DNA of 64,000 bases. It comes from Acetobacterium woodii (lineage in GTDB: Bacteria; Bacillota; Clostridia; Eubacteriales; Eubacteriaceae). This document shows, piece by piece, positions 20,483-36,740 of this stretch. Location: positions 186,001-250,000 of the forward strand of contig JACQZP010000019.1 of NCBI GenBank assembly GCA_016213825.1, read 5' to 3'. A model generated the notes under the pieces. It was not told the origin of the DNA and did not search any database. It was given only the letters and a program-made list of their open reading frames with translations. The position numbers and the translations under genes were made by a program. Within the stretch, counting starts at the first letter, position 1; each line of letters opens with the position of its first letter.

Positions 20483-21289
20483 TTACAAGGTTTCGTTCAT
20501 GCTGCCGGTTCGGTATCCTTTTAAATCAAGACCGATATAGGTAAAACCAATGGTTTTAAAACGATCATGGATTTTATTACGGGTATCCTTATTCAGTAAG
20601 GCATCAAAACCGGTTTCATCAGTTTCGATCCGAGCCAGATTACCATGGTAGCGGACGCGAACCTGATGGAAGCCCAGATCAAGAAGATATTGTTCGGCCT
20701 GGTCGATCATGTGTAAGCGATCAGGGGTGATGTTCTCGCCATATGGGAATCGGGAAGACAGACAGGCAAAGGACTGTTTATTCCAGGTTGGCAGGTTCAA
20801 TTCCTTCGAAAGCTGACGGATTTCATCCTTTGAAAGTTCGGCGAACCGCAATGGACTTTTTATTCCCAATTCGGTTACCGCTAAAAGCCCCGGGCGGTAA
20901 TCCCCATTGTCATCGGTGTTGGAACCCTCAACAACATAGTTTAATTTCTGAATTGTGGCAATTTCTTTGATTTTGGTAAAAAGTTCGGATTTACATAAGT
21001 AACAGCGGTTCTTGGGATTATGGGAAAAACCCTCAATATCCAGTTCTTCCGAATCAATAATAAAGTGATCGGCGCCCAATTCTTCAGCATAAGTGGTAGC
21101 TTCGAGCAATTCTCGCTTAGGAAAACTTTCCGATCGGGCTGTCACAGCAACAGCATTTTTTCCTAAAACATCGTAGGCAACCTTTAGTAAAAAAGTCGAA
21201 TCAACGCCACCTGAAAAGGCCACGGCGACACTTTCCAGTTCGGCTAAGTAGTCTTTCAAAGCTTGATATTTATTAGTCAGGCTATCCAT
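20483..21289 (-). CDS. larE: LarE-type sulfur transferase for nickel-pincer cofactor
   Basis: PP-loop enzyme of 268 aa that adenylates and sulfurates pyridinium dicarboxylate mononucleotide. SGGVDS is at residues 26-31. Cys96, Cys99 (RCYLCK) and Cys176 (SFACLSSR) are present. In the sacrificial LarE of Lactiplantibacillus only Cys176 exists; the three-Cys form is known to carry a [4Fe-4S] cluster and to act catalytically, so this is probably that type. ATG 21289 follows AAGGAG. It lies 4 kb from larC and larB on the same strand, behind a 41-bp dyad. Confidence 0.92.
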   Translation of the reverse strand: MDSLTNKYQALKDYLAELESVAVAFSGGVDSTFLLKVAYDVLGKNAVAVTARSESFPKRELLEATTYAEELGADHFIIDSEELDIEGFSHNPKNRCYLCKSELFTKIKEIATIQKLNYVVEGSNTDDNGDYRPGLLAVTELGIKSPLRFAELSKDEIRQLSKELNLPTWNKQSFACLSSRFPYGENITPDRLHMIDQAEQYLLDLGFHQVRVRYHGNLARIETDETGFDALLNKDTRNKIHDRFKTIGFTYIGLDLKGYRTGSMNETL

Positions 21290-25651: not shown

Positions 25652-26803
25652 TTATTTTAATTTCTCAACCATTTCCAGTACTTCCCAAAGCGATTTCCCC
25701 GATTCCTGAGCGATTTTTTTGACATCTTCATATTCTGGGGTAGCGCGTTTAATATCACCATGCTGGGATATTTTAATGGTCACTTCACCGAGGGGCGTAT
25801 CGATTTTCTTGAAATGCCGGTGCATGCAGGTGCGTTCCACCGGATATTTGCGAATCCCGATGGTGGAGGTTTCTTTTAAAATAAGTTCCTCAATCAGCGG
25901 CAGTTTGGCTTCACTGGATAAGACCGTCAGATGAATGCCGGGACGGTTCTTCTTCATGTAAACCGGGGTATAAAAGGCATCCAGGGCACCGTTTTGCAGT
26001 AATATTTCCAACACATAACCAGCCATTTCCCCAGTCATATCATCCACATTGGTTTCCACAACCATAATGGTGTTGGATTCAGATTTGCGTCCCTGAATAA
26101 TCCGCAGAGCATTTAAAACCCCGAAGTCTTTACCGCCAAAGCCATAACCGGTTTTTTCAGGGATAAAACTAGGCGTATTGGGGGAGTAGGTGGCCAGTTC
26201 AGCGAGAATTGCCACCCCGGTGGGGGTGGCCGATTCGCCGTCGATGGCTTTGGAATACATTTCAAAATTAGACTCACAAAGAATTTCAGCCGTGGCCGGA
26301 GCTGGCACTGGCAGGAGTCCATGGGCACAGCGAACCCAGCCGCTGCCGACATTTATTTTGGAACCATAGACCAGCTCTGGTTTCAGTGCGTGGTAACAGA
26401 TGGCGGCACCGACGATATCAACGATAGAATCCAGCGCGCCAACCTCATGGAAATGAACCCGTTCCACTGGAACATTATGAACCTTGCCTTCAGCCACGGC
26501 CACCCGCATAAAAATGGCCAGGGCTGTTGTTTTAACCTCATCGGAAAGGGTTGATTTTTCGATGATTTCCTTGATATCATTAAAGTGTCGGTGGTGATGG
26601 CGGTCAGCTTCCAGAACGACATGACAGCGGGTCCCGGAAATCCCTTTTTTCATGGTGGACTCGGCTTCGATGCGAAAGCCAGTGAGATTCAACTTTTGGA
26701 GTTCAGCGCTGAGATACGCCGGGTCAATCCCTAAATCAATAAAGGCCCCTAAAACCATATCGCCGCTAATACCGGAAAAACAATCGAAAAATAAAACCTT
26801 CAT
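25652..26803 (-). CDS. larC: Nickel insertion protein for the pincer cofactor (LarC)
   Basis: CTP-dependent nickel insertase of 383 aa. The N-terminus FFDCFSGISGDMVLGAF, the HHHRHF histidine run (about residues 70-75), ERVHFHEVGALDSIVDI and GESATPTGVA are LarC signatures. In Lactiplantibacillus larC is split into two frames joined by programmed frameshifting; here it is one uninterrupted frame. ATG 26803 follows GAAGGAGATT. Last gene of the block downstream of larB. Confidence 0.94.
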   Translation of the reverse strand: MKVLFFDCFSGISGDMVLGAFIDLGIDPAYLSAELQKLNLTGFRIEAESTMKKGISGTRCHVVLEADRHHHRHFNDIKEIIEKSTLSDEVKTTALAIFMRVAVAEGKVHNVPVERVHFHEVGALDSIVDIVGAAICYHALKPELVYGSKINVGSGWVRCAHGLLPVPAPATAEILCESNFEMYSKAIDGESATPTGVAILAELATYSPNTPSFIPEKTGYGFGGKDFGVLNALRIIQGRKSESNTIMVVETNVDDMTGEMAGYVLEILLQNGALDAFYTPVYMKKNRPGIHLTVLSSEAKLPLIEELILKETSTIGIRKYPVERTCMHRHFKKIDTPLGEVTIKISQHGDIKRATPEYEDVKKIAQESGKSLWEVLEMVEKLK

Positions 26804-26868: not shown

Positions 26869-27618
26869 CTACAATTTATTAATCTTTGAAGCCATACAGG
26901 CAGCGCCAAAACCGTTGTCGATATTGACAACACCAATCCCACTGGCGCAAGAGGTCAGCATCCCCAGCAACGCTGAAATGCCGCCAAAACTGGCGCCGTA
27001 GCCGATACTGGTGGGAACGGCGACGATCGGTTTATCGGTCAGCCCGCCAACAACCGAAGCCAGCGCCCCTTCCATGCCGGCCACCACAATAATGACCTTG
27101 GCGTGATTGATAATCGGCACGTTGCCAAGCAGTCGATGAATACCGGCCACGCCGACGTCATAGAGCCGCTTAACCTGATTACCCATAACCATGGCAGTGA
27201 TGGCAGCCTCTTCAGCTACCGGAATGTCCGAGGTACCGGCAGTGACAACGAGAATGTAGTCTTCGGTGGTTTTATATTCTTCCCGTTTGACGACGACGGA
27301 ACGGGCTTCTTCATAATAAATGGCATCAGGTGTAATGGATTTAATGGTGTCGAAGACATCGCGTTCAGCCCGGGAAGCGAGGATGTTTCCGGTGGAGCGC
27401 TCCAGCATATTTTCGACAATTCCCTTGATCTGGTTTAATGATTTTCCTGGACTGTAAATCACTTCCGGATAACCGTTTCGCAGTTCCCGGTGATGGTCCA
27501 CCTTGGCATAAGTGAGATCTTCGTAGGGCAAGGTTTTGAGCAGCTCCAGCGCCGTATTGACCTCACATTCCTGGTTCTTGACGTCTTCTAATAGTTTTGT
27601 TAATTGATCTACATTCAT
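26869..27618 (-). CDS. larB: Nicotinate adenine dinucleotide carboxylase/hydrolase (LarB)
   Basis: PurE-like enzyme of 249 aa that makes pyridinium-3,5-biscarboxylate mononucleotide, the first step of nickel-pincer cofactor synthesis. The C-terminal PurE-like core is clear: VVTAGTSDIPVAEEAA, DVGVAGIHRLLG, VVAGMEGALASVVGGL, VPTSIGYGASFGG. ATG 27618 has GGAG six bases upstream; the ATG at 27630 contains that ribosome site and is rejected. It lies 48 bases after the AMP-ligase gene and 65 before larC, same strand. Confidence 0.94.
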   Translation of the reverse strand: MNVDQLTKLLEDVKNQECEVNTALELLKTLPYEDLTYAKVDHHRELRNGYPEVIYSPGKSLNQIKGIVENMLERSTGNILASRAERDVFDTIKSITPDAIYYEEARSVVVKREEYKTTEDYILVVTAGTSDIPVAEEAAITAMVMGNQVKRLYDVGVAGIHRLLGNVPIINHAKVIIVVAGMEGALASVVGGLTDKPIVAVPTSIGYGASFGGISALLGMLTSCASGIGVVNIDNGFGAACMASKINKL

Positions 27619-27666
27619 AATTGTCTCCATTACTGCTGATAAGTCAGCTGAATATTATACGTTTTA

Positions 27667-29526
27667 TTAAAGTGTTTGGATGTAATTGGTCATTTCCTTT
27701 AAGGTCAGGCGGCTGCGGATCTGATCGGTTTGGATGGTGACGACATAAGCTTTTTCCAATTGGTGGAGCAGATCGATGAGGCCCAGGGAGTCTCCACCCA
27801 AATCAAAGACAAAATGGCTGTCCAGGGCGATCATCGCCGGAGAAATCTTCAGAATTTTTGACCAGTACGCGGCCATTTCCTGATAAGGTCCATCCAGCGA
27901 TGACTCGGAGGTGCTGCCCAGGTGAATCGCATGATCATAATTGTTGTAGTCGCCATTTTCCCAACCAATCGCCAGCGCCAGCCGATTGGTTTTTCCGGAG
28001 GTGGTTTTGGGTATTTCATCAATCATCACGCCCCATTGAATCGGGAGCTGCCAGGTTGCTGAAATGGCCTGCCCGGCCAGAGTCAAAGTTTCGGGATCTT
28101 TTGAATCGCTGAAAAGGATCAGACAATTTTCCTGAGTCAGGCCGTCTCTGCCTTGAACCAAAATAACATTGACGTTTTCTGAAAAAGCTTTTCGGCCGGT
28201 TTTTTCCAGATCGGAAACCAGATAATTCTCACCATTGACAATGATAATATCTTTATACCGGCCAAAGATATTGAGCCAGCCGTTGCGGAAGAAACCGAGA
28301 TCGCCGGTATTGAACCAGCCGTTTTCATCAAGTCCGGTGGCGGCATTGTTGTCTTTAGCATAATAACCCTTCATCACATTGGTTCCGCGGATATGAATCA
28401 GTCCCAAATATTCAGGGTCAAGGACGTTTCCGTCCAGATCTTTAATGACAACTTCGTTGCATTCATCCAAAACCCCCACTGACATCCGGCTGATGGTATC
28501 CTCGTCGGGGTCGCAGAAGAACAACTTTTCGCCGATGGCAATACCGCTGCCTAAAAAATGATCAACCTGGAAGGATGATCCATAGGGGGTATATGCCACG
28601 CCCATGGTTGTTTCGCTGAGGCCATAGGCCGGTTTTAAGGTGTTTGGAATCCAGCCCATCGGGGCCGCCTGCGACTCAAAAGCGGTTAGCGACAGGGGAT
28701 TGACGTCTTCGCCGCCGCAAAAACAGATATAAACGGTGGATAAATCCACGGCCCGGTTCTGTTTAATACCAACCTTCAGGAGGTGTTCAATGCCAAAGAG
28801 CGCTGCCCCGGTAACGGTGGCTGAAAACTGCGACAGCTTTTCCAGCCAGCGGTTGGGGTTCTGGATAAATTGCAGCGGACTCATTAAATACTGGGGAAAG
28901 TTATTAACGATGGGAACCAGATGATAGCCTACAAAACCAAAGCAGTGGGAGAGGGGCAGCCAGCTTAAATAGCGTTCCTGGATGTTTTCCCGGACAATGA
29001 TACTGCTGGCAATACCGCCTTCCCAGAGGTTTTTGGTGGTCAGTACGGCGCCCTTGGGGTCTGAGGAGGTGCCCGAGGTAAACTGAATCATTCCGGGATC
29101 GGTATCTTTTACTGTTACAATGGTTCCGACTGGGGACGACAGCAGTGCCCGGTACATCAGCAGGTTATTTTCAAAAAGCGTGGTAATGCCTTCCAGATCG
29201 CTGACAATGACGGGTTGATCCAGGGTGTCTAGGACGCTTTGCAGGTAAGCTCGGGATTTTTCATCCTGGGCAATGGGGAGGATAGATGGCACCATCCCGC
29301 CTAAAATTCCGGCCCAGAAACAGGTGATCTGGGCTTGAATGCTTTTGAGTTGTAAAACGAGCAAGGCTCCCTTTTTAAGTCCTTTTGACTGGAAACCGCC
29401 GAGGACTTTGGTGGCATTTTCGAAAAGTGCGGCGTAGGTCTGGGTCATTTCCTGACCGTCCGCTTCCAGATAAGTGATGGTGACATCACTGCTTCTTAAC
29501 TTCATAAATGAATCGTGTATATTCAT
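27667..29526 (-). CDS. Acyl-AMP ligase with C-terminal carrier domain
   Basis: ANL-family adenylating enzyme of 619 aa fused to a phosphopantetheine carrier domain. The P-loop motif QFTSGTSSDPKGAVLT (about residue 150), AYGLSETTMG (about 305), GWFNTGDLG and the catalytic-lysine segment PKTTSGKTNR (about 510) are intact. The carrier serine lies in DLGGDSLGLIDLL (about residue 582). It resembles fatty-acyl-AMP ligases more than peptide synthetase modules; there is no condensation or thioesterase domain. It would load an acid onto its own carrier for a neighbouring enzyme, perhaps the SDR. ATG 29526 follows GGAGACTCCC reversed as GAGGAGACT. The substrate is unknown. Confidence 0.85.
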   Translation of the reverse strand: MNIHDSFMKLRSSDVTITYLEADGQEMTQTYAALFENATKVLGGFQSKGLKKGALLVLQLKSIQAQITCFWAGILGGMVPSILPIAQDEKSRAYLQSVLDTLDQPVIVSDLEGITTLFENNLLMYRALLSSPVGTIVTVKDTDPGMIQFTSGTSSDPKGAVLTTKNLWEGGIASSIIVRENIQERYLSWLPLSHCFGFVGYHLVPIVNNFPQYLMSPLQFIQNPNRWLEKLSQFSATVTGAALFGIEHLLKVGIKQNRAVDLSTVYICFCGGEDVNPLSLTAFESQAAPMGWIPNTLKPAYGLSETTMGVAYTPYGSSFQVDHFLGSGIAIGEKLFFCDPDEDTISRMSVGVLDECNEVVIKDLDGNVLDPEYLGLIHIRGTNVMKGYYAKDNNAATGLDENGWFNTGDLGFFRNGWLNIFGRYKDIIIVNGENYLVSDLEKTGRKAFSENVNVILVQGRDGLTQENCLILFSDSKDPETLTLAGQAISATWQLPIQWGVMIDEIPKTTSGKTNRLALAIGWENGDYNNYDHAIHLGSTSESSLDGPYQEMAAYWSKILKISPAMIALDSHFVFDLGGDSLGLIDLLHQLEKAYVVTIQTDQIRSRLTLKEMTNYIQTL

Positions 29527-29570: not shown

Positions 29571-30314
29571 TTATATCATCGTGTAGCCGCCATCAATGGC
29601 GATGGTCTGGCCGATGATGTAATCACTGCCTGATGAGCAGAGGAAAGAAATAATTCCAAAAAGGTCTTCTTCGGTACCCAGTCGGCCCGCCGGGGTATTT
29701 TTGGTGTGCTCGGTAAGGGCATATTTGGGGAAATTTGATTTAGCCATGTCGGTTTCAATAACTCCCGGGGCAATGGCATTGACCTGAATGTTAAGCCGGG
29801 CAGCTTCCCGGGCCAGAGCCTTGGTAAAGGCAATGACACCGCCTTTAGCAGCCGAATAATGGGTAAACCCAAGGCCGCCGACACGACCGGCGATAGAGGC
29901 CACATTAATAATTTTACCGCGTTTTTGTTTTTCTAATACCTTGTAAACCGCATGGGTAGCGATAAAGGTACCGGTTAAATCGATATCGATCACTGCTTTC
30001 CAGTCTTCCAGAGTCATCGCGCTGAAAGTTTTAACCGGGAAGATCCCGGCGTTGTTAATTAGTACGTCGATCTTGCCATAGGTTTCCATCACGATCTCGA
30101 CCATTTTAATGGCATCTGCTTCGGAAGAAATATCACATTGTACGGCAATGCATTTGGTGGGCAGTTTTTCGGCAGCGGCTTTAGCGGTTTCGATGTTCCG
30201 GCCGATGATGACAATGTTGGCGCCTTCATTGCTGAGATATTCGGCAAATGAATAACCAATCCCCCGGGATGAACCGGTGATGATGATAACCTTATCCTGA
30301 TGTATACCTGCCAT
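29571..30314 (-). CDS. Short-chain dehydrogenase/reductase (FabG-like)
   Basis: NAD(P)-dependent oxidoreductase of 247 aa. The cofactor loop TGSSRGIGYS, NNAG (about residue 88), and the catalytic Ser, Tyr and Lys (YSAAKGG) are all present; GGYTMI ends the protein as in FabG-type enzymes. ATG 30314 begins MAGIHQDK, four bases after the lipoyl protein stop; a longer frame into that gene is rejected. In this cluster it could reduce or oxidise a carrier-bound beta-keto or hydroxy acid. Confidence 0.9.
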   Translation of the reverse strand: MAGIHQDKVIIITGSSRGIGYSFAEYLSNEGANIVIIGRNIETAKAAAEKLPTKCIAVQCDISSEADAIKMVEIVMETYGKIDVLINNAGIFPVKTFSAMTLEDWKAVIDIDLTGTFIATHAVYKVLEKQKRGKIINVASIAGRVGGLGFTHYSAAKGGVIAFTKALAREAARLNIQVNAIAPGVIETDMAKSNFPKYALTEHTKNTPAGRLGTEEDLFGIISFLCSSGSDYIIGQTIAIDGGYTMI

Positions 30315-30318
30315 GGTC

Positions 30319-30555
30319 TTAACCCTCAATTTCGCCGATAATCTGGCCAACTAGAACGCGATCATCTTCTTGCGCCAGAAACGCAGAAATGACGCCATCA
30401 GCGGGGGCTTCAATATAGATGGAAATTTTATCGGTGGCGGCTTCAGCAATGTTGTCACCTTTTTTAACAGTATCGCCAACGGCGACCAGCCATTGTCGTA
30501 AATTAATTTCTTCAGCGCCTTCGGCAAATTCTGGGATAGCAATTTCGTATTTCAT
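30319..30555 (-). CDS. Stand-alone lipoyl/biotinyl domain protein
   Basis: Protein of 78 aa that is nothing but a lipoyl domain: EFAEGAEEINLRQWLVAVGD, then ATDKISIYIEAPADG with the modifiable Lys in TDKI, then VGQIIGEIEG. No E2 catalytic core is attached and no 2-oxoacid dehydrogenase genes are nearby. lipB lies 12 bases upstream, implying that this protein is its intended substrate. It would be a mobile swinging arm or sulfur/acyl carrier used in trans. ATG 30555 follows AAAGGAGAA. Confidence 0.88.
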   Translation of the reverse strand: MKYEIAIPEFAEGAEEINLRQWLVAVGDTVKKGDNIAEAATDKISIYIEAPADGVISAFLAQEDDRVLVGQIIGEIEG

Positions 30556-30567
30556 TTTATTTCTCCT

Positions 30568-31263
30568 TTAAATTTTATTCATTTCATCGATGTTATTTTT
30601 TGTAGTTTGAGTTCCAAACATGGCATCAAACGCCAGAATGAACTGATCCCGCAGTTCGGACAGGGTGACGGGGGGGCATCCACAGGTAGCCATGGAGGTT
30701 ACGCCCTTATCTTCAATACCGCAGGGGATGATGGTGCTAAAATGCTGGAGGTTGGGATTAACATTAATGGACATGCCATGAAGGGTAACGCCGTGAGACA
30801 CCGCAATCCCCAGGGCCGAGATTTTTTTATCCTCGCCAGTATTGGGGTCGACAATCCAGACGCCGCTCCGTCCTTTGATCCGCTTACCTTTTAAATGGTA
30901 GTGCGCCAAAAGATTGATGACGATCTGTTCCAGACAGCGCACGTACTGGTGGGCACCTTTGACATACTGGTCAAAATGCAGAATCGGTGAAACAATCAAT
31001 TGGCCGTTACCATGATAGGAAATATCACCACCTCGGCTGACCGATGTCAGCGTAATCCCCATAGCTGCCAGTTCTTCAGCTGAATGGAGCAGGTTTTTTT
31101 CCTGGGTTCCCCGCCCCAGGGTAATAACCGGATAGTTTTCCTGAAACAGCAGGGTGTCGGTTCCGGTGCCATCCACACATTTCTGGTGGATCTTTTCCTG
31201 AATAATAAAGGCGTCTTCATAGGTAATAAGTCCCAGGTCGATCCAATTGAGGTCTTTTTTCAT
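30568..31263 (-). CDS. lipB: Octanoyltransferase LipB
   Basis: Moves octanoate from ACP to a lipoyl-domain lysine; 231 aa. The hallmark RGGDISYHGNGQL (about residues 77-89), the Lys-containing KISALGIAV and the catalytic Cys in IIPCGIEDKGVTS are present. Start ATG 31263 lies two bases after the regulator stop. No lipA is in the window, so octanoyl to lipoyl conversion must be encoded elsewhere. Confidence 0.93.
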   Translation of the reverse strand: MKKDLNWIDLGLITYEDAFIIQEKIHQKCVDGTGTDTLLFQENYPVITLGRGTQEKNLLHSAEELAAMGITLTSVSRGGDISYHGNGQLIVSPILHFDQYVKGAHQYVRCLEQIVINLLAHYHLKGKRIKGRSGVWIVDPNTGEDKKISALGIAVSHGVTLHGMSINVNPNLQHFSTIIPCGIEDKGVTSMATCGCPPVTLSELRDQFILAFDAMFGTQTTKNNIDEMNKI

Positions 31264-31265
31264 GA

Positions 31266-33278
31266 CTAATCCTCCAGATGATACTGTTTCATTTTGCGGT
31301 AGAGAGTGCTTCGGGAGATACCCAGAAATTCGGCCGCTTTTTTACGTTCGGGAAAAAGCGAAAGCGCTTTTCTTATGGTTGTAAATTCCAGGTCTTTCAA
31401 ATCCACATTGGGTTTTTCAACAGTGGAAACAGCTGAAATTTTCTGCTGGGGCAGTAGTTCTTCAATGGGGGTGAGTTCTTCATTTAAATTCGGTAGATAA
31501 CTTGAGATGAAGTAGTCATCGATCCGATTGGTTTCAGTAAAATTTACAGCCTGCTCAATAGCATTTTTAAACTGCCGGACATTCCCCGGCCACTCATATT
31601 CTTGCATAGTGGCAATGGTGGAAGGATGTAGTGGTTCAATGAATTTGCCGCAAGACTGGGTAATCTCCTTAAGAAAAAAATCAGCCAGAATCGGAATATC
31701 TTTTTTTCGTTTCCGCAACGGGGGGATGTTGATCTGTAAAACATTCAGGCGATAATAAAGATCTTGTCGAAACCTCCCCTTTTTAACTTCTTCGGCAAGA
31801 TTTTTATTCGTGGCGGCAATGATTCTGACATCGATCGGGATATCCTTGTCGCCGCCAATCCGCTGGATATAGCGCTCCTGTAAGACGCGTAGCAGAATGG
31901 TCTGGGTATTCAAGGGCATTTCTCCGATTTCATCAAGAAAAATGGTGCCGTCTTTGGCCAATTCAAATTTTCCGATTTTTCCATGTTTACTGGCTCCGGT
32001 AAAGGAACCTTCTTCATAGCCAAAAAGCACACTCTCAATGAGACTTTCGGGAATCCCAGCACAGTTGATGGCGATAAATGGTTTATCCGATTGATTGGCG
32101 TTGTGGATGGCCTGGGCAAACATTTCCTTACCGGTTCCGCTTTCACCCTCCAACAGCACGGTAGCACTGCCTTTGGCGGCAATCTGAGAAAGATGGACAG
32201 AGCGTAGCAGATCAGAGCTTTCACCGATGATATCATCAAAGGTAAAACGAGTGCCTTTGCGCTTGGCCTTTTCAATAACATTAATTTTTAGATCCAGATC
32301 TTTGAGTGTTGCGACAGCACCGGCCACGGTACCATTTTCATGAAGAATCAGCTTGCTGTTAATCAGACAATTGATTTTTTTACTTTTAGTGATAATATGT
32401 TTATCTTTTTCTTCAAAGAAGGCAGGCGGAACATGGCCATTATGATCGAGAATGGTTTCTCCATCCATGATTTCCAGGATGTTTTTTCCATAGGACTCAA
32501 AGGTGGTGGTTTTTAAAATCTTCGCGCCCTGGGAATTAATACCGATAATTTTGCCTTGTACATCCACGGCCACCACGCCATCGGACATCGAGTCGATCAG
32601 GGTGCTGAGATAGTGGTTGGTTAAATCAATTTGGCGATTGGATGCGGCAACACAGAATTGTCGTGAGATCGCTTTGGTCGCAGCAACAACCATACCCAAG
32701 GTATGCGGGTAAGCCAGTTCTTTGGGTCCAGCCATATCCATTACCCCTAAAAGCTTGCCATTTTCATCAAGGATTGGGGCTGCCGAGCAGGTCAGATCAT
32801 GATAACATTCAAAATAATGCTCTGCCCCAATGACCTGAATGGGCTGCAACAGTTCAATTGCCAGTCCGGTAGCGTTGGTACCGGCCTTATGTTCGTTCCA
32901 GATGCTGCCACGAACCAGATTTTTAGTAAATGCTTCATTCAGAATCGATTGGTCACAGATCAATTCCAGAATCACTCCATTGGGATCGGTAAGGGTCGTT
33001 GAAAAGCCAGATTTGTTAACAAACTCCTGTAATTCAATCATAAACGGAATACTTACATCCAGCAGCAGTTTATTTTGTTCCAGTCGTTTGCTGAAATTTT
33101 CTTCACTGACGGAAGGCGCACGATTAACTGCCCACGGATTCAGCTTGGCTTGTTGACAACGCAACCAGGAATCAATGATTGGTTTGCGGAGCTGATTTCC
33201 AATGACGTTGGAAATGACAAAATCAGTCCATGTTTTTTTCATGACATCAAAGTCTGCAGATATCTTCAAAGCATTCAC
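31266..33278 (-). CDS. Sigma54-dependent activator of the AcoR type
   Basis: Enhancer-binding protein of 670 aa. A GAF-type sensor occupies about residues 60-200, a PAS domain about 220-330 and the AAA+ core about 345-575 with Walker A GESGTGKE and the sigma54 loop GSFTGA (usually GAFTGA). A Fis-type helix-turn-helix ends the protein (RKKAAEFLGISRSTLYRKM). GTG 33278 is used here, just after AAAGGAGC; TTG 33269 is an alternative with better spacing. It is the likely activator of the sigma54 promoter at 34754-34768, autoregulating its own operon; the GAF/PAS ligand is unknown. Confidence 0.92.
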   Translation of the reverse strand: MNALKISADFDVMKKTWTDFVISNVIGNQLRKPIIDSWLRCQQAKLNPWAVNRAPSVSEENFSKRLEQNKLLLDVSIPFMIELQEFVNKSGFSTTLTDPNGVILELICDQSILNEAFTKNLVRGSIWNEHKAGTNATGLAIELLQPIQVIGAEHYFECYHDLTCSAAPILDENGKLLGVMDMAGPKELAYPHTLGMVVAATKAISRQFCVAASNRQIDLTNHYLSTLIDSMSDGVVAVDVQGKIIGINSQGAKILKTTTFESYGKNILEIMDGETILDHNGHVPPAFFEEKDKHIITKSKKINCLINSKLILHENGTVAGAVATLKDLDLKINVIEKAKRKGTRFTFDDIIGESSDLLRSVHLSQIAAKGSATVLLEGESGTGKEMFAQAIHNANQSDKPFIAINCAGIPESLIESVLFGYEEGSFTGASKHGKIGKFELAKDGTIFLDEIGEMPLNTQTILLRVLQERYIQRIGGDKDIPIDVRIIAATNKNLAEEVKKGRFRQDLYYRLNVLQINIPPLRKRKKDIPILADFFLKEITQSCGKFIEPLHPSTIATMQEYEWPGNVRQFKNAIEQAVNFTETNRIDDYFISSYLPNLNEELTPIEELLPQQKISAVSTVEKPNVDLKDLEFTTIRKALSLFPERKKAAEFLGISRSTLYRKMKQYHLED

Positions 33279-33345: not shown

Positions 33346-33373
33346 GTGTATCAGGGGGCAGCCCCTGATACAC
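33346..33373 (-). terminator. Strong hairpin between DUF362 gene and the activator gene
   Basis: GTGTATCAGGGG (33346-33357) and CCCCTGATACAC (33362-33373) form a perfect 12-bp stem with a 4-base loop. On the minus strand it is followed only by a weak T-rich stretch (CTTTCTTG), so it may be a leaky terminator or an RNA-stability hairpin that keeps DUF362 mRNA more abundant than the downstream genes. Confidence 0.65.
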
Positions 33374-33384
33374 AAATGCATTAT

Positions 33385-34686
33385 CTATTTAGCCGCAGCC
33401 AGTTTTTGAAGATCAGCATTAAGTTGAGCAAAAATGTAAACGGGTGCGCAACCTGGGTAATAGGTTACTGATTTAGCGAGAGCGGCTGCTTCTTTAACCT
33501 TGTCTACTGATGGGAAAAGTTCCCAGCAATCACCGCAGATAAAGACGTTTTTACCGGCACAGAATTGCGGATCGATATCGGGTACACCACCTGAGATAAC
33601 AACGACTTCACCAGATTTTTCCAGGAATTTGTTCATGTCAATCCCGGAGATTGCAAATGAGTCCAAGGCGCCACGAACGTTGACAAAACAGCCTGGACAG
33701 GTTTGTTGCATGATACAGGTTAAACCGGCATACATACCAATGGGATCGCCACCAGGACGTTTGAAGTGTTTCATGACGGATGCGATGGAGTTACCAACCA
33801 CATCAATTTTTTCCAAATCGATTTCGCCCTGGCCTTCAGTTCCGGCACAGCGAATAGCGGGAATTTCCATCGGTTCGAAGCCCATGATTGAACAGGCAAC
33901 TGAGTCAACGGCGACCGTGTCGGTTCCAGCGACGATCAGGTTCATTTCGATTGGCGTACCAGCGTGAGGTCCTTGACCTTCCATCCCGATAACGGAGTCA
34001 ACAATGGTCAGATCAGCGTGTCGGATTCGATACATGTCAGCCATTTTCTGACCCAATTCAATACGGTGAGCACCCTGCTGTTGATCGTTTGGATGGCAGT
34101 TGGGGATAATCCCATTCCAGTTTTTAAGACCTAAGGTAACGGTACCGGCTAAATGCACTTTCATTTTTGGTAAGTTGATGACCACATCGGCATCCATAAA
34201 GGGTTTGAAAACCGTGGCATGTTTAAATAATTTTGCGCCTTCAATTTCTACTGGAACAACATCATGTTCGTCAAAATAGATGACTTCATCAGCGCCACCA
34301 AGTTTAGCAGCTTCTTCCATTTTCGAATCCTTAAAGGCTGGTTTGGCCCGGCCAACATGCATTCCTAAAGATGGGTTGTCGCCAACAACAACTTTTCCGG
34401 CTTTGGAGTTTTTCTTAACATAAGAAACAACAGCTTCAATGGTTCTCGGATCAACAACGGCATGGCTTTCTGGAGGTGCCTGGAAAGCAAGATTTGGTTT
34501 AATTAAGACGGTATCGCCTTCTTTGATGATGGTGTCAAGGGAACCAATGGCTAATTCAACTGCTTCGGCAACAGCGGCTTCAATTTTCCGGACATCCTCT
34601 TCAATACGAACATATTTTCCGCCCATGAATGAGGCATTGCCTTCTGGTTGTGCAACCTTAACAACAGATACTTTTGTTTTACTCAT
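33385..34686 (-). CDS. DUF362 protein, candidate nickel-pincer (LarA-like) enzyme
   Basis: Protein of 433 aa of the DUF362 family, for which no general function is established. The N-terminal half has LIKPNLAF, VDPRT, a GMH at His110, and LPKMKVHLAGTVTLGLK with His178 and Lys188. The C-terminal part is Cys-rich (MQQTCPGC, FICGDC, YYPGCAP), suggesting a metal or Fe-S site. His110, His178 and Lys188 are placed and spaced like the catalytic His108 and His174 and the cofactor-bound Lys184 of lactate racemase LarA; His198 or His207 could match the nickel ligand His200. With larB and larC in the same block, a nickel-pincer-dependent activity is plausible. That is inference. First gene after the sigma54 promoter; ATG 34686 follows AAGGAGAT. 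Confidence 0.85.
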   Translation of the reverse strand: MSKTKVSVVKVAQPEGNASFMGGKYVRIEEDVRKIEAAVAEAVELAIGSLDTIIKEGDTVLIKPNLAFQAPPESHAVVDPRTIEAVVSYVKKNSKAGKVVVGDNPSLGMHVGRAKPAFKDSKMEEAAKLGGADEVIYFDEHDVVPVEIEGAKLFKHATVFKPFMDADVVINLPKMKVHLAGTVTLGLKNWNGIIPNCHPNDQQQGAHRIELGQKMADMYRIRHADLTIVDSVIGMEGQGPHAGTPIEMNLIVAGTDTVAVDSVACSIMGFEPMEIPAIRCAGTEGQGEIDLEKIDVVGNSIASVMKHFKRPGGDPIGMYAGLTCIMQQTCPGCFVNVRGALDSFAISGIDMNKFLEKSGEVVVISGGVPDIDPQFCAGKNVFICGDCWELFPSVDKVKEAAALAKSVTYYPGCAPVYIFAQLNADLQKLAAAK

Positions 34687-34753
34687 GATAATCTCCTTTT
34701 GGTATAGTCACCATATATTTGTCCATAAGCATGGACGTGTAGTTATAATACCC

Positions 34754-34768
34754 GCAATTATCATGCCA
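34754..34768 (-). promoter_or_regulatory. Sigma54 (-24/-12) promoter
   Basis: On the minus strand TGGCAT-GATAA-TTGC (34768-34754) matches the TGGCAY-N5-TTGC consensus with GG and GC ten bases apart. It lies about 70 bases upstream of the DUF362 start and would drive the block down to larC. Confidence 0.85.
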
Positions 34769-34821
34769 AAACAAGGTGGCCCTTAAAAAACCAAAAACCA
34801 AGATTCTTGAGACATACGAAG

Positions 34822-34875
34822 TGTGTCATGTGTCAAAATGGGACATATTAATGTGTCATTATAACACGTGACACA
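34822..34875. promoter_or_regulatory. TGTGTCA upstream activator sites
   Basis: Four copies of TGTGTCA: 34822-34828, 34829-34835 and 34852-34858 direct, and 34869-34875 inverted (TGACACA). A further GGGACA (34840-34845) forms TGTC-N7-GACA with the second copy. They lie 55-120 bases upstream of the sigma54 -24 element, the usual place for enhancer-binding protein sites. Confidence 0.75.
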
Positions 34876-35006
34876 CAATTTAAGCCTTAATCTAAGAAAC
34901 TTTGCTAAACTACGATTATCAAATTATTAGGTGTTCGATCAAGATAATTTTTGTTATAATTCTAGAATATGAGGTACAATATAAGATGATAAGGAAACCT
35001 TGTCAT

Positions 35007-35084: not shown

Positions 35085-36740
35085 ATGAATAAAGTTTTAC
35101 TACTTAATGGTAGTCATAAAACCGGGAAAAGTTATACCATGCAAATAGCTGAACAATTTGTCTCAGGGTTGATTGAATTTGATGCTGAAACAATTGTTGA
35201 ATCAGTTCATTTAAAGGATCAGAATATTAACGCCTGTACCGGATGTTTCGCCTGTTGGACAACAACACCGGGTGAGTGTGTTTTTCAAGATGACATGACC
35301 GAGCTGTTCCAAAAATATGTGGATGCAGATATTGTTATTTGGGCGACCCCACTTTATCATTATGGAATTTCCAGCTCCATGAAAAAATTTATGGAGCGGA
35401 CCCAGCCGGCGCTGCTCCCTTTTATTGATCATGAGGGCGGTGGAACCTACGGACATCCGTTTAGGAACCCTGAAAAGATGGCGAATAAAAAGCATGTCCT
35501 GATCAGCACCTGCGGTTTTCCATCCGTTAAAAACAATTACGAGGGTGTTGAAGAACAGTTTAATAATCTTTTTGGAAGGGATAAATGGGAAAAGATTATC
35601 TGTGTGGAGGGTGAACTGCTGGGTATTCACCAATTGGACAACCTTACCGCTCCATATTTGGATCTGGTTAGGATGGCTGGCAAAGAATATGGTGAAAATT
35701 TAAGTATTTCTCTACATGTCCGGGAAGGTCTGTCAAAACCCTTTGTTGAAACGCCAACCTATTTACAGACCACCAACCTGAGTTGGGGCGTCGATGACAC
35801 CCGGATGAAGGATTCTGATGGGGGTCTGATTGCCTGGAACTATATGAAAGAGGTTCAGGCGGCTTTTAATCCCAAAATTCGTCCCAAAATGAATGCGGTC
35901 TTACAAATTGATTTCACCGACATCAAAGAGCGATACCAGTTTGTCATCAAAGATGAGACCTGTACCTTGTTGCGTAATGATTTTACCAGAGAGACAACGG
36001 CCATCAATATTAATCTGACGATGCTGGAGCGAATTTTGGAAGGGAAAATCGATGCGGCACAATCACTGATCGAGAAGAAATATTCAGTGGTTGGGGACAT
36101 GCGTCTGTTTAATGCCTTCCTGGACGGACTCTTTGGTCCAGTCATGTTGAATCCGGAAAAGAAGCGAAAGCTGGTTCCAATTAGTTTTAAAAACACGCCT
36201 TACTGGTTTTTTCTGACCATGTGCCCCTGGATTTTTTGTTTCCTTTTTGCGGAGTACAATCCCTTGTTGGGGGTCGTCATTCCGTTGATGATCAGTGGAG
36301 TCTTGTTCAGCATTAAGCGCGGAACCGATATTGTTTATTTTGAAAGAGGTACGCTGTTGGTCTTTGCCATCATGGGATCAATGGTGGTGACCTTTGGCGC
36401 CGAGTATCAGGGAAATACCTATGCCATTATTGGTTATATCGCATTGGCTTTGATCTGGGCGATCTCGACCCTAAACGCCGTGCCGTTATCAGCGGACTAT
36501 ACCCATTTTTACAATGGCCGCAATGCCCTTAAAAATGTCTTGTTTCTCAGGACAAATCGTTTATTATGTTATGTCTGGTCGATTGTCTTTTTGGTTCAGG
36601 CGGGAATTACAATGTGGCTGAACACGACCGTGCTGATTAATTTTGCGGCGATTCTGCCAATCGTGTTAAGTATTCCGACCTTTGTATTTTCGCTGTGGTT
36701 TTTAAAATGGTACCCCAAGGACAGCTCAAAACCAAAATAA
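35085..36740 (+). CDS. Flavodoxin-like reductase - SCP2 - six-helix membrane fusion protein
   Basis: Protein of 551 aa with three parts. Residues 1-200 are an NADPH-dependent FMN reductase/flavodoxin fold (LLNGSHKTGKSYTM, then CTGCFACWTTTPGECVFQDDM and WATPLYHYGISSSMK). Residues about 255-345 resemble an SCP2 sterol/lipid-binding domain (NLTMLERILEGKIDAAQSL, KKYSVVGDMRLF). Residues about 368-545 hold six predicted membrane helices. A lipid- or quinone-like substrate reduced at the membrane is a reasonable guess. Multiple Cys near residue 45 may bind a cluster or be redox active. ATG 35085 follows AAGTGAGGATAGT. I know no characterised protein with this architecture. Confidence 0.8.
   Translation: MNKVLLLNGSHKTGKSYTMQIAEQFVSGLIEFDAETIVESVHLKDQNINACTGCFACWTTTPGECVFQDDMTELFQKYVDADIVIWATPLYHYGISSSMKKFMERTQPALLPFIDHEGGGTYGHPFRNPEKMANKKHVLISTCGFPSVKNNYEGVEEQFNNLFGRDKWEKIICVEGELLGIHQLDNLTAPYLDLVRMAGKEYGENLSISLHVREGLSKPFVETPTYLQTTNLSWGVDDTRMKDSDGGLIAWNYMKEVQAAFNPKIRPKMNAVLQIDFTDIKERYQFVIKDETCTLLRNDFTRETTAININLTMLERILEGKIDAAQSLIEKKYSVVGDMRLFNAFLDGLFGPVMLNPEKKRKLVPISFKNTPYWFFLTMCPWIFCFLFAEYNPLLGVVIPLMISGVLFSIKRGTDIVYFERGTLLVFAIMGSMVVTFGAEYQGNTYAIIGYIALALIWAISTLNAVPLSADYTHFYNGRNALKNVLFLRTNRLLCYVWSIVFLVQAGITMWLNTTVLINFAAILPIVLSIPTFVFSLWFLKWYPKDSSKPK

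Follow-up and report, generated by a model that had tools for sequence, protein, structure and literature searches.

A DUF362 protein with a LarA-like fold heads a cluster with its own larB and larC in Acetobacterium woodii and is a candidate user of the nickel-pincer nucleotide

Introduction

The closest known system to the protein described here is the LarA/Lar_N superfamily (PF09861), which includes L. plantarum LarA (5huq), the malate racemase Mar2 (7s91) and Isosphaera LarA (9eia). According to excerpts of PMC7583248, LarA uses R75, K184 and H200 for its nickel-pincer nucleotide (NPN) and D72, H108, H174 and K298 for catalysis. DUF362 and DUF2088/Lar_N have already been grouped in Pfam clan CL0471 (PMC11770544, in excerpt). 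Within the literature searched, represented in part by excerpts, no proposal of DUF362 as an NPN protein was found, and one two-term search led to this source alone. Haloferax volcanii may contain an NPN enzyme and has larBCE homologues (PMC8305020, in excerpt), and NPN expression systems already exist (PMC11796402, in excerpt).

Here we analysed P0001, a DUF362 protein of 433 amino acids from Acetobacterium woodii. Its gene lies on the minus strand at positions 33385..34686 of a 64,000-nucleotide stretch (contig JACQZP010000019.1, positions 186,001 to 250,000), called the window below, and is the first gene of a cluster that also holds larB and larC. A preliminary description of this DNA had seen larB and larC nearby and had proposed a LarA fold and NPN use. 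Our analysis suggests that P0001 may be a hitherto missing user of the nickel-pincer cofactor.

Results

The assignment of the reading frame to DUF362 was borne out by Pfam. PF04015 is the sole family found, covering residues 60-265 (E 3.1e-53, 181.3 bits against a gathering cut-off of 24), and Lar_N (PF09861) was not matched by P0001 among the Pfam profiles listed up to E 1. Read on the plus strand, 33385-34686 contains many stops. The best NCBIfam match is the Npun_F2552 family, whose name presumably points to Nostoc punctiforme (E 7.9e-36, residues 38-297).

The predicted structure has the LarA fold in its N-terminal part (about residues 10-308; 33763..34659, minus strand), as the preliminary description had supposed, with a predicted local distance difference test score (pLDDT) below 50 at residues 198-205. 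Comparison of 118 DUF362 rows with 40 Lar_N rows by hhalign yielded a probability of 93.5 and an E of 2.3e-7. R81 in VDPRT, H110 in GMH, H178 in LPKMKVH, K188, H198 and H207 all stand at the residue numbers given earlier. In the hhalign profile alignment, H110 (codon 34357..34359, minus strand, as are the other codons) and H178 (34153..34155) align with the LarA catalytic pair H108 and H174, and K188 (34123..34125) aligns with the NPN-tethering lysine K184; by alignment they are the counterparts of these residues, as had been proposed. H207 (34066..34068) is a possible counterpart of the nickel ligand H200, judged by the His position in DUF362 rows; H200 falls on Q203 in most hhalign runs, whereas one global run (88-row set) places it on H207. 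On the aligned sequences, P0001 thus shares three or four key active-site residues with the nickel-dependent lactate racemase. The further equation of R81 with LarA R75 is not supported, since hhalign places Q69 there. LarA K298 lies beyond the stretch aligned in the default hhalign runs.

We then separated what is common to DUF362 from what marks the P0001 clade. No row departs from K176, H178 or K188, whether among the 24 of the clade or among 64 other, non-orthologous DUF362 rows (L073 and L126 are one gene, as are L074 and L127, the latter two among the 64). Since H178 and K188 are identical in 64/64 non-orthologous rows, their ten-residue spacing reflects family descent and is nothing special to P0001, and the near coincidence of its position numbers with those of LarA, once offered as an argument, has to be dropped. 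A His follows the Lys by 15-19 residues in all 117 anchored DUF362 rows (118 given). Its offset is +19 in 24/24 clade rows, +15 in 64/64 others and +16 in 29/29 anchored rows of the COG2768 type (of 30 such rows, only L192 gave no anchor), compared with +16 in LarA. We take COG2768 as the name for DUF362 proteins with an inserted ferredoxin; the H-K-H spacing of these proteins (10 and 16) equals that of LarA. Clade rows with a residue at these positions invariably have R81, H110, H198, H207 and H241 (H110 in 23/23), and these columns mostly differ in non-clade DUF362 rows, for H207 partly through a shifted loop.

The cluster behind P0001 runs on the minus strand. It comprises a sigma-54-dependent activator with GAF/PAS, AAA and Fis-type helix-turn-helix domains (31266..33278), a LipB-type octanoyl/lipoyl transferase (30568..31263; NF010925 and TIGR00214 above cut-off), a FabG-like short-chain dehydrogenase (SDR; 29571..30350), a fatty acyl-AMP ligase-like enzyme with a C-terminal phosphopantetheine carrier domain (27667..29526), a cluster-specific larB (26869..27630; NF033503, E 5.7e-88) and larC (LarC1+LarC2; 25652..26803; TIGR00299 and NF052512). 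The activator, SDR and ligase were assigned by profile families, and larB and larC by NCBIfam equivalogs above cut-off, which substantiates the earlier sighting of both. Because larE (20483..21289, minus strand; TIGR00268, E 1.1e-100) also lies in the window, apart from the cluster, the full biosynthesis set is present. The view that all this forms one transcription block stands in part: strand and gaps (2-217 bp) agree with it, but four genes, from the activator to the ligase, separate the DUF362 gene from larB and larC, and directly after the DUF362 stop comes a 12-bp hairpin that lacks a clear T-run (33346..33373, minus strand). The hairpin occurs in many, not all, loci and may raise DUF362 mRNA over downstream mRNA.

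Orthologues were collected by one scan with exact peptide patterns over 84,980 species, which could miss more divergent ones. Of the 24 loci that it brought up, 21 are orthologous (70-99% identity), and the nearest relatives found are Acetobacterium. The hosts fall into a first group of Acetobacterium, Eubacteriaceae and Eubacterium barkeri, and a second of Erysipelotrichaceae-type metagenome-assembled genomes (MAGs; L115 and L120 are counted here, though titled only Firmicutes) and one Clostridia MAG. The order DUF362 - activator - lipB - SDR - ligase - larB - larC is kept in 12/12 first-group loci of sufficient length, among them the window and G276 (L102, L110 and L111 end too early), with larE between ligase and larB in E. 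barkeri. Cluster LarB proteins are 72-98% identical to one another and 46-55% to a second LarB lineage; the window LarB is 50% identical to the other LarB of its genome and 74% to that of the E. barkeri cluster. It is a new finding that this clade's gene stands first in a conserved sigma-54-type unit that includes divergent larB and larC copies of its own.

The second group has no LarB over cut-off. The order here is DUF362 - lipB - SDR - LarC1-type gene - ECF S component in 6/6 readable Erysipelotrichaceae-type loci (families were scanned in L117 and the rest read by similarity; L118 ends too early), and in the Clostridia locus L119 an ECF component comes after DUF362, with no lar gene found there. 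An ECF S component gene is thus present in 7/7 readable LarB-less loci and nowhere else among the 26 sequences searched, namely L102-L126 plus the window; the ECF proteins of L117 and L119 are 46% identical. An ECF vitamin transporter in place of synthesis genes is a classical sign of cofactor salvage in comparative genomics. The replacement of LarB by a vitamin-type S component, also new, suggests uptake in place of synthesis, and by analogy the compound carried may be NPN or a precursor. LarC1-sized genes stand beside the ECF S component in L114, L116, L117, L120, L122 and L115 (6368-7121, the LarC1 stretch in two frames), with no LarC2 seen adjacent; in these genomes neither LarB nor LarE passes the cut-off.

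The promoter region follows the same division. A sigma-54 (-24/-12) type site, TGGCATGATAATTGC, starts 82 bp upstream of the DUF362 start codon (34753..34768, minus strand). Its conserved form TGGCATNNNNNTTGC begins 72-84 bp before the DUF362 start in 14/14 first-group loci and was found in 0/7 second-group loci having upstream sequence, so that site and activator gene occur in step across both groups. TGTGTCA/TGACACA repeats upstream of the site (window 34815-34878) are possible activator binding sites, judging by sequence.

The C-terminal domain, residues 319-433 (33388..33732, minus strand), carries C330, C333, C387 and C413, which are present in 15/15 rows, with the pattern common to three distant relatives too. 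We take CxxC, C and GC(x)P to be the motif of the NuoB/hydrogenase small-subunit family. In support of this four-cysteine motif, a profile of 6 C-terminal ends searched against PDB matched only the NuoB/hydrogenase small-subunit group (29/29 matches at E <= 10; best E 0.0075); a profile built from the P0001 clade alone gave no such match in PDB. The last 115 residues are modelled as a flavodoxin-like sheet with the four fixed Cys, and the structural match to the NuoB type is weak and tied with flavodoxins. The domain is probably a [4Fe-4S] domain like that of NuoB and the hydrogenase small subunit. This four-cysteine end, newly recognised here, may give electrons a route out of the pocket, in contrast to LarA.

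We next surveyed lar genes more widely. Among orthologue-bearing genomes, LarB is over cut-off in 9/17, LarE in 4/12 and LipA in 4/18, so the cluster LipB stands outside a complete lipoate pathway in most genomes. Lar_N occurs in 9/17, G346 being the one from the second group (its seven LarA sites read D, K, H, N, K, H, S). A phylum sample of 199 genomes at least 90% complete contained LarB over cut-off in 111, DUF362 (E <= 1e-3) in 157 and Lar_N in 132; for the counts below, three weak DUF362 matches were dropped (154 left) and Lar_N was kept at E <1e-20 (104 genomes, 28 weak dropped). DUF362 is present in 103/111 LarB-positive versus 51/88 LarB-negative genomes (odds ratio 9.3), and among genomes without a strong Lar_N in 34/40 versus 22/55. 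In a set reduced to a single genome for each of 96 taxonomic families, 49 LarB-positive genomes have it and 6 lack it, versus 24 and 17 (odds ratio 5.8, p 7e-4). The association can stem from a shared anaerobic lifestyle, and the carriers without LarB are evidence against strict dependence. Strong Lar_N proteins, taken as a control, are present in 33/88 LarB-negative genomes, and 5/6 Lar_N proteins read from LarB-less genomes keep D72, R75, H108, H174, K184 and H200 (L047, L049, L060, L061, L064), possibly by cofactor salvage or with an unrecognised LarB. Because these proteins keep the NPN residues, a missing LarB alone does not exclude NPN use.

The COG2768 type was considered as a strict LarB partner and rejected: a full search (E <= 1e-30) found 75 genomes with and 36 without it among the LarB-positive, versus 20 and 68 among the LarB-negative, superseding a figure of 44/47 LarB-positive carriers among the matches listed. 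COG2768-type genes adjoin larC-larB in L220 (7754-8857), lie near larB-larC in L219 (7157-8284), stand beside a Lar_N gene in L221 (6931-8082), L222 (9356-10543) and L223 (8618-9769), and are one gene away from it in L227 (7995-9146).

Several neighbouring features were also recorded. Outside the window, the genome encodes two Lar_N proteins and three more DUF362 proteins, besides a second larB and larE; one of its Lar_N genes shares a strand with lipA within a span of about 8 kb (G000:C7 54076-63118, L128). A divergent gene for a flavodoxin-like/SCP2 protein (window 35085-36740) adjoins the DUF362 gene in Acetobacterium-type loci. In L117 (5196-9065), the DUF362 cluster is preceded on its own strand by genes for a CdaR-type regulator, a GntP permease and a glycerate kinase, genes of like size are present in L114 and L116, and such neighbours hint at a glycerate-like hydroxy acid context.

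Discussion

From the fold, the aligned residues, the conserved cluster and promoter site, the alternation of larB with ECF, and the cysteine pattern, we infer a working model. P0001 would transfer hydride by means of a pincer cofactor within a LarA fold, have an Fe-S outlet and draw on larB and larC of its own cluster for supply, a tentative reading that we put slightly below an even chance. Its pocket would hold NPN or a close pincer relative, with K188 as the tether and H207 as the likely nickel ligand. The cofactor would be made by the cluster LarB and LarC with LarE, and lineages without LarB and LarE would take up the cofactor or a precursor via the ECF transporter of the cluster. H110 and H178 would serve as acid/base for hydride transfer at a hydroxy substrate, and electrons would exit by the C-terminal Fe-S cluster, making the protein an oxidoreductase, unlike the redox-neutral racemase LarA. 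Induction would proceed from the sigma-54 promoter.

Use of the nickel-pincer cofactor by P0001, as proposed in the preliminary description, is plausible at not quite even confidence: the fold, the His/His/Lys alignment and the cluster larB-larC speak for it, and several findings weigh against it. LarB and LarE are over cut-off in 0/8 second-group genomes (MAGs of 1.1-2.6 Mb, completeness not stated), in which orthologues of 70-80% identity keep the key residues where covered, and the second-group cluster LarC is LarC1-sized or absent. In hhalign, LarA D72 aligns with L66 (N65 adjacent) and R75 with Q69, so that neither is kept; R81 or N65 could still act as a spatial substitute. The H-K-H triad is DUF362-wide and is kept in LarB-less genomes too, in 9/9 generic and 4/4 anchored COG2768-type rows. 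That every DUF362 protein strictly depends on LarB is ruled out by the 51/88 LarB-negative carriers together with the nine taxonomic families holding both LarB states, in which 13/18 LarB-negative genomes have DUF362. The main rival, which we consider rather unlikely, takes up these points and holds that DUF362 and LarA share only descent and fold. The K/H residues of an Fe-S redox protein would then bind another cofactor, a metal or an anionic substrate, and larB and larC would be co-clustered because the same signal also creates a need for NPN in the LarA proteins encoded elsewhere in the genome. The extra family-wide lysine K176 and the two Lar_N proteins of the window genome fit that account. 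Less easily reconciled with it are the cluster larB, a separate lineage beside a second larB-larC of the same genome; G342, which carries the cluster, two LarB and one LarE without a Lar_N match; and the LarC1-type gene, still linked to DUF362 in the 6/6 Erysipelotrichaceae-type loci. The ECF gene in the 7 readable LarB-less loci and the intact Lar_N proteins of LarB-less genomes soften the objection from LarB-less orthologues.

Two further explanations shift the role of P0001. It could be a cofactor carrier, a chaperone or a late maturation step whose LarA-like pocket holds NPN for another client; larC or LarC1 is linked in 18/19 loci readable far enough (12 + 6; exception L119), the H-K-H triad is kept, and the L119 DUF362 gene is accompanied by an ECF component alone. 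Yet the catalytic-type pair H110/H178 and the probable Fe-S domain are kept as well, the DUF362 gene is the first behind the sigma-54-type site, as for a main enzyme, and the cluster offers no obvious other client; we regard this reading as quite improbable. Alternatively, the acyl-AMP ligase-carrier, SDR and LipB could form the core of an acyl-carrier pathway modifying a protein or lipid, with DUF362 and lar genes auxiliary and ECF importing a lipoate-like compound. LipB is in the cluster despite the scarcity of LipA, and LipB and SDR occur in both cluster types; against this very improbable account, lipB, SDR and ligase were not found beside DUF362 and ECF in L119, nor the ligase in Erysipelotrichaceae-type clusters.

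If the pincer-dependent reading of P0001 is true, the nickel-pincer cofactor serves net redox chemistry beyond racemisation and may be imported by organisms that lack LarB. P0001 is a concrete, testable candidate, having a LarA fold, a larB-larC cluster of its own and a predicted Fe-S electron exit. A broader proposal, which we regard as unlikely, is that DUF362 as a whole is a second nickel-pincer family, with a universal His-Lys-His cofactor site and pincer hydride chemistry coupled to Fe-S domains in net redox enzymes. The control lines H. volcanii, Synechococcus elongatus and Bacteroides ihuae, with DUF362 and no Lar_N, fit this proposal, which, if true, would account for many genomes among the roughly 15% that reportedly have larB, larC and larE but no larA.

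Compared with known systems, P0001 has K176, H178, K188 and a downstream His as in every DUF362 (PF04015) row read, and its clade differs in the fixed R81, H110, H198 and H241. At 124 bits against a cut-off of 500, it is not a member of the Npun_F2552 family. Common DUF362 proteins carry a ferredoxin, whereas the P0001 clade ends NuoB-like instead, with the CxxC ... C ... GCxP pattern of complex I NuoB/NdhK and [NiFe]-hydrogenase small subunits. From the LarA/Lar_N superfamily it is set apart by this Cys-rich C-terminal domain, by the acyl-carrier genes nearby and by sigma-54-type control.
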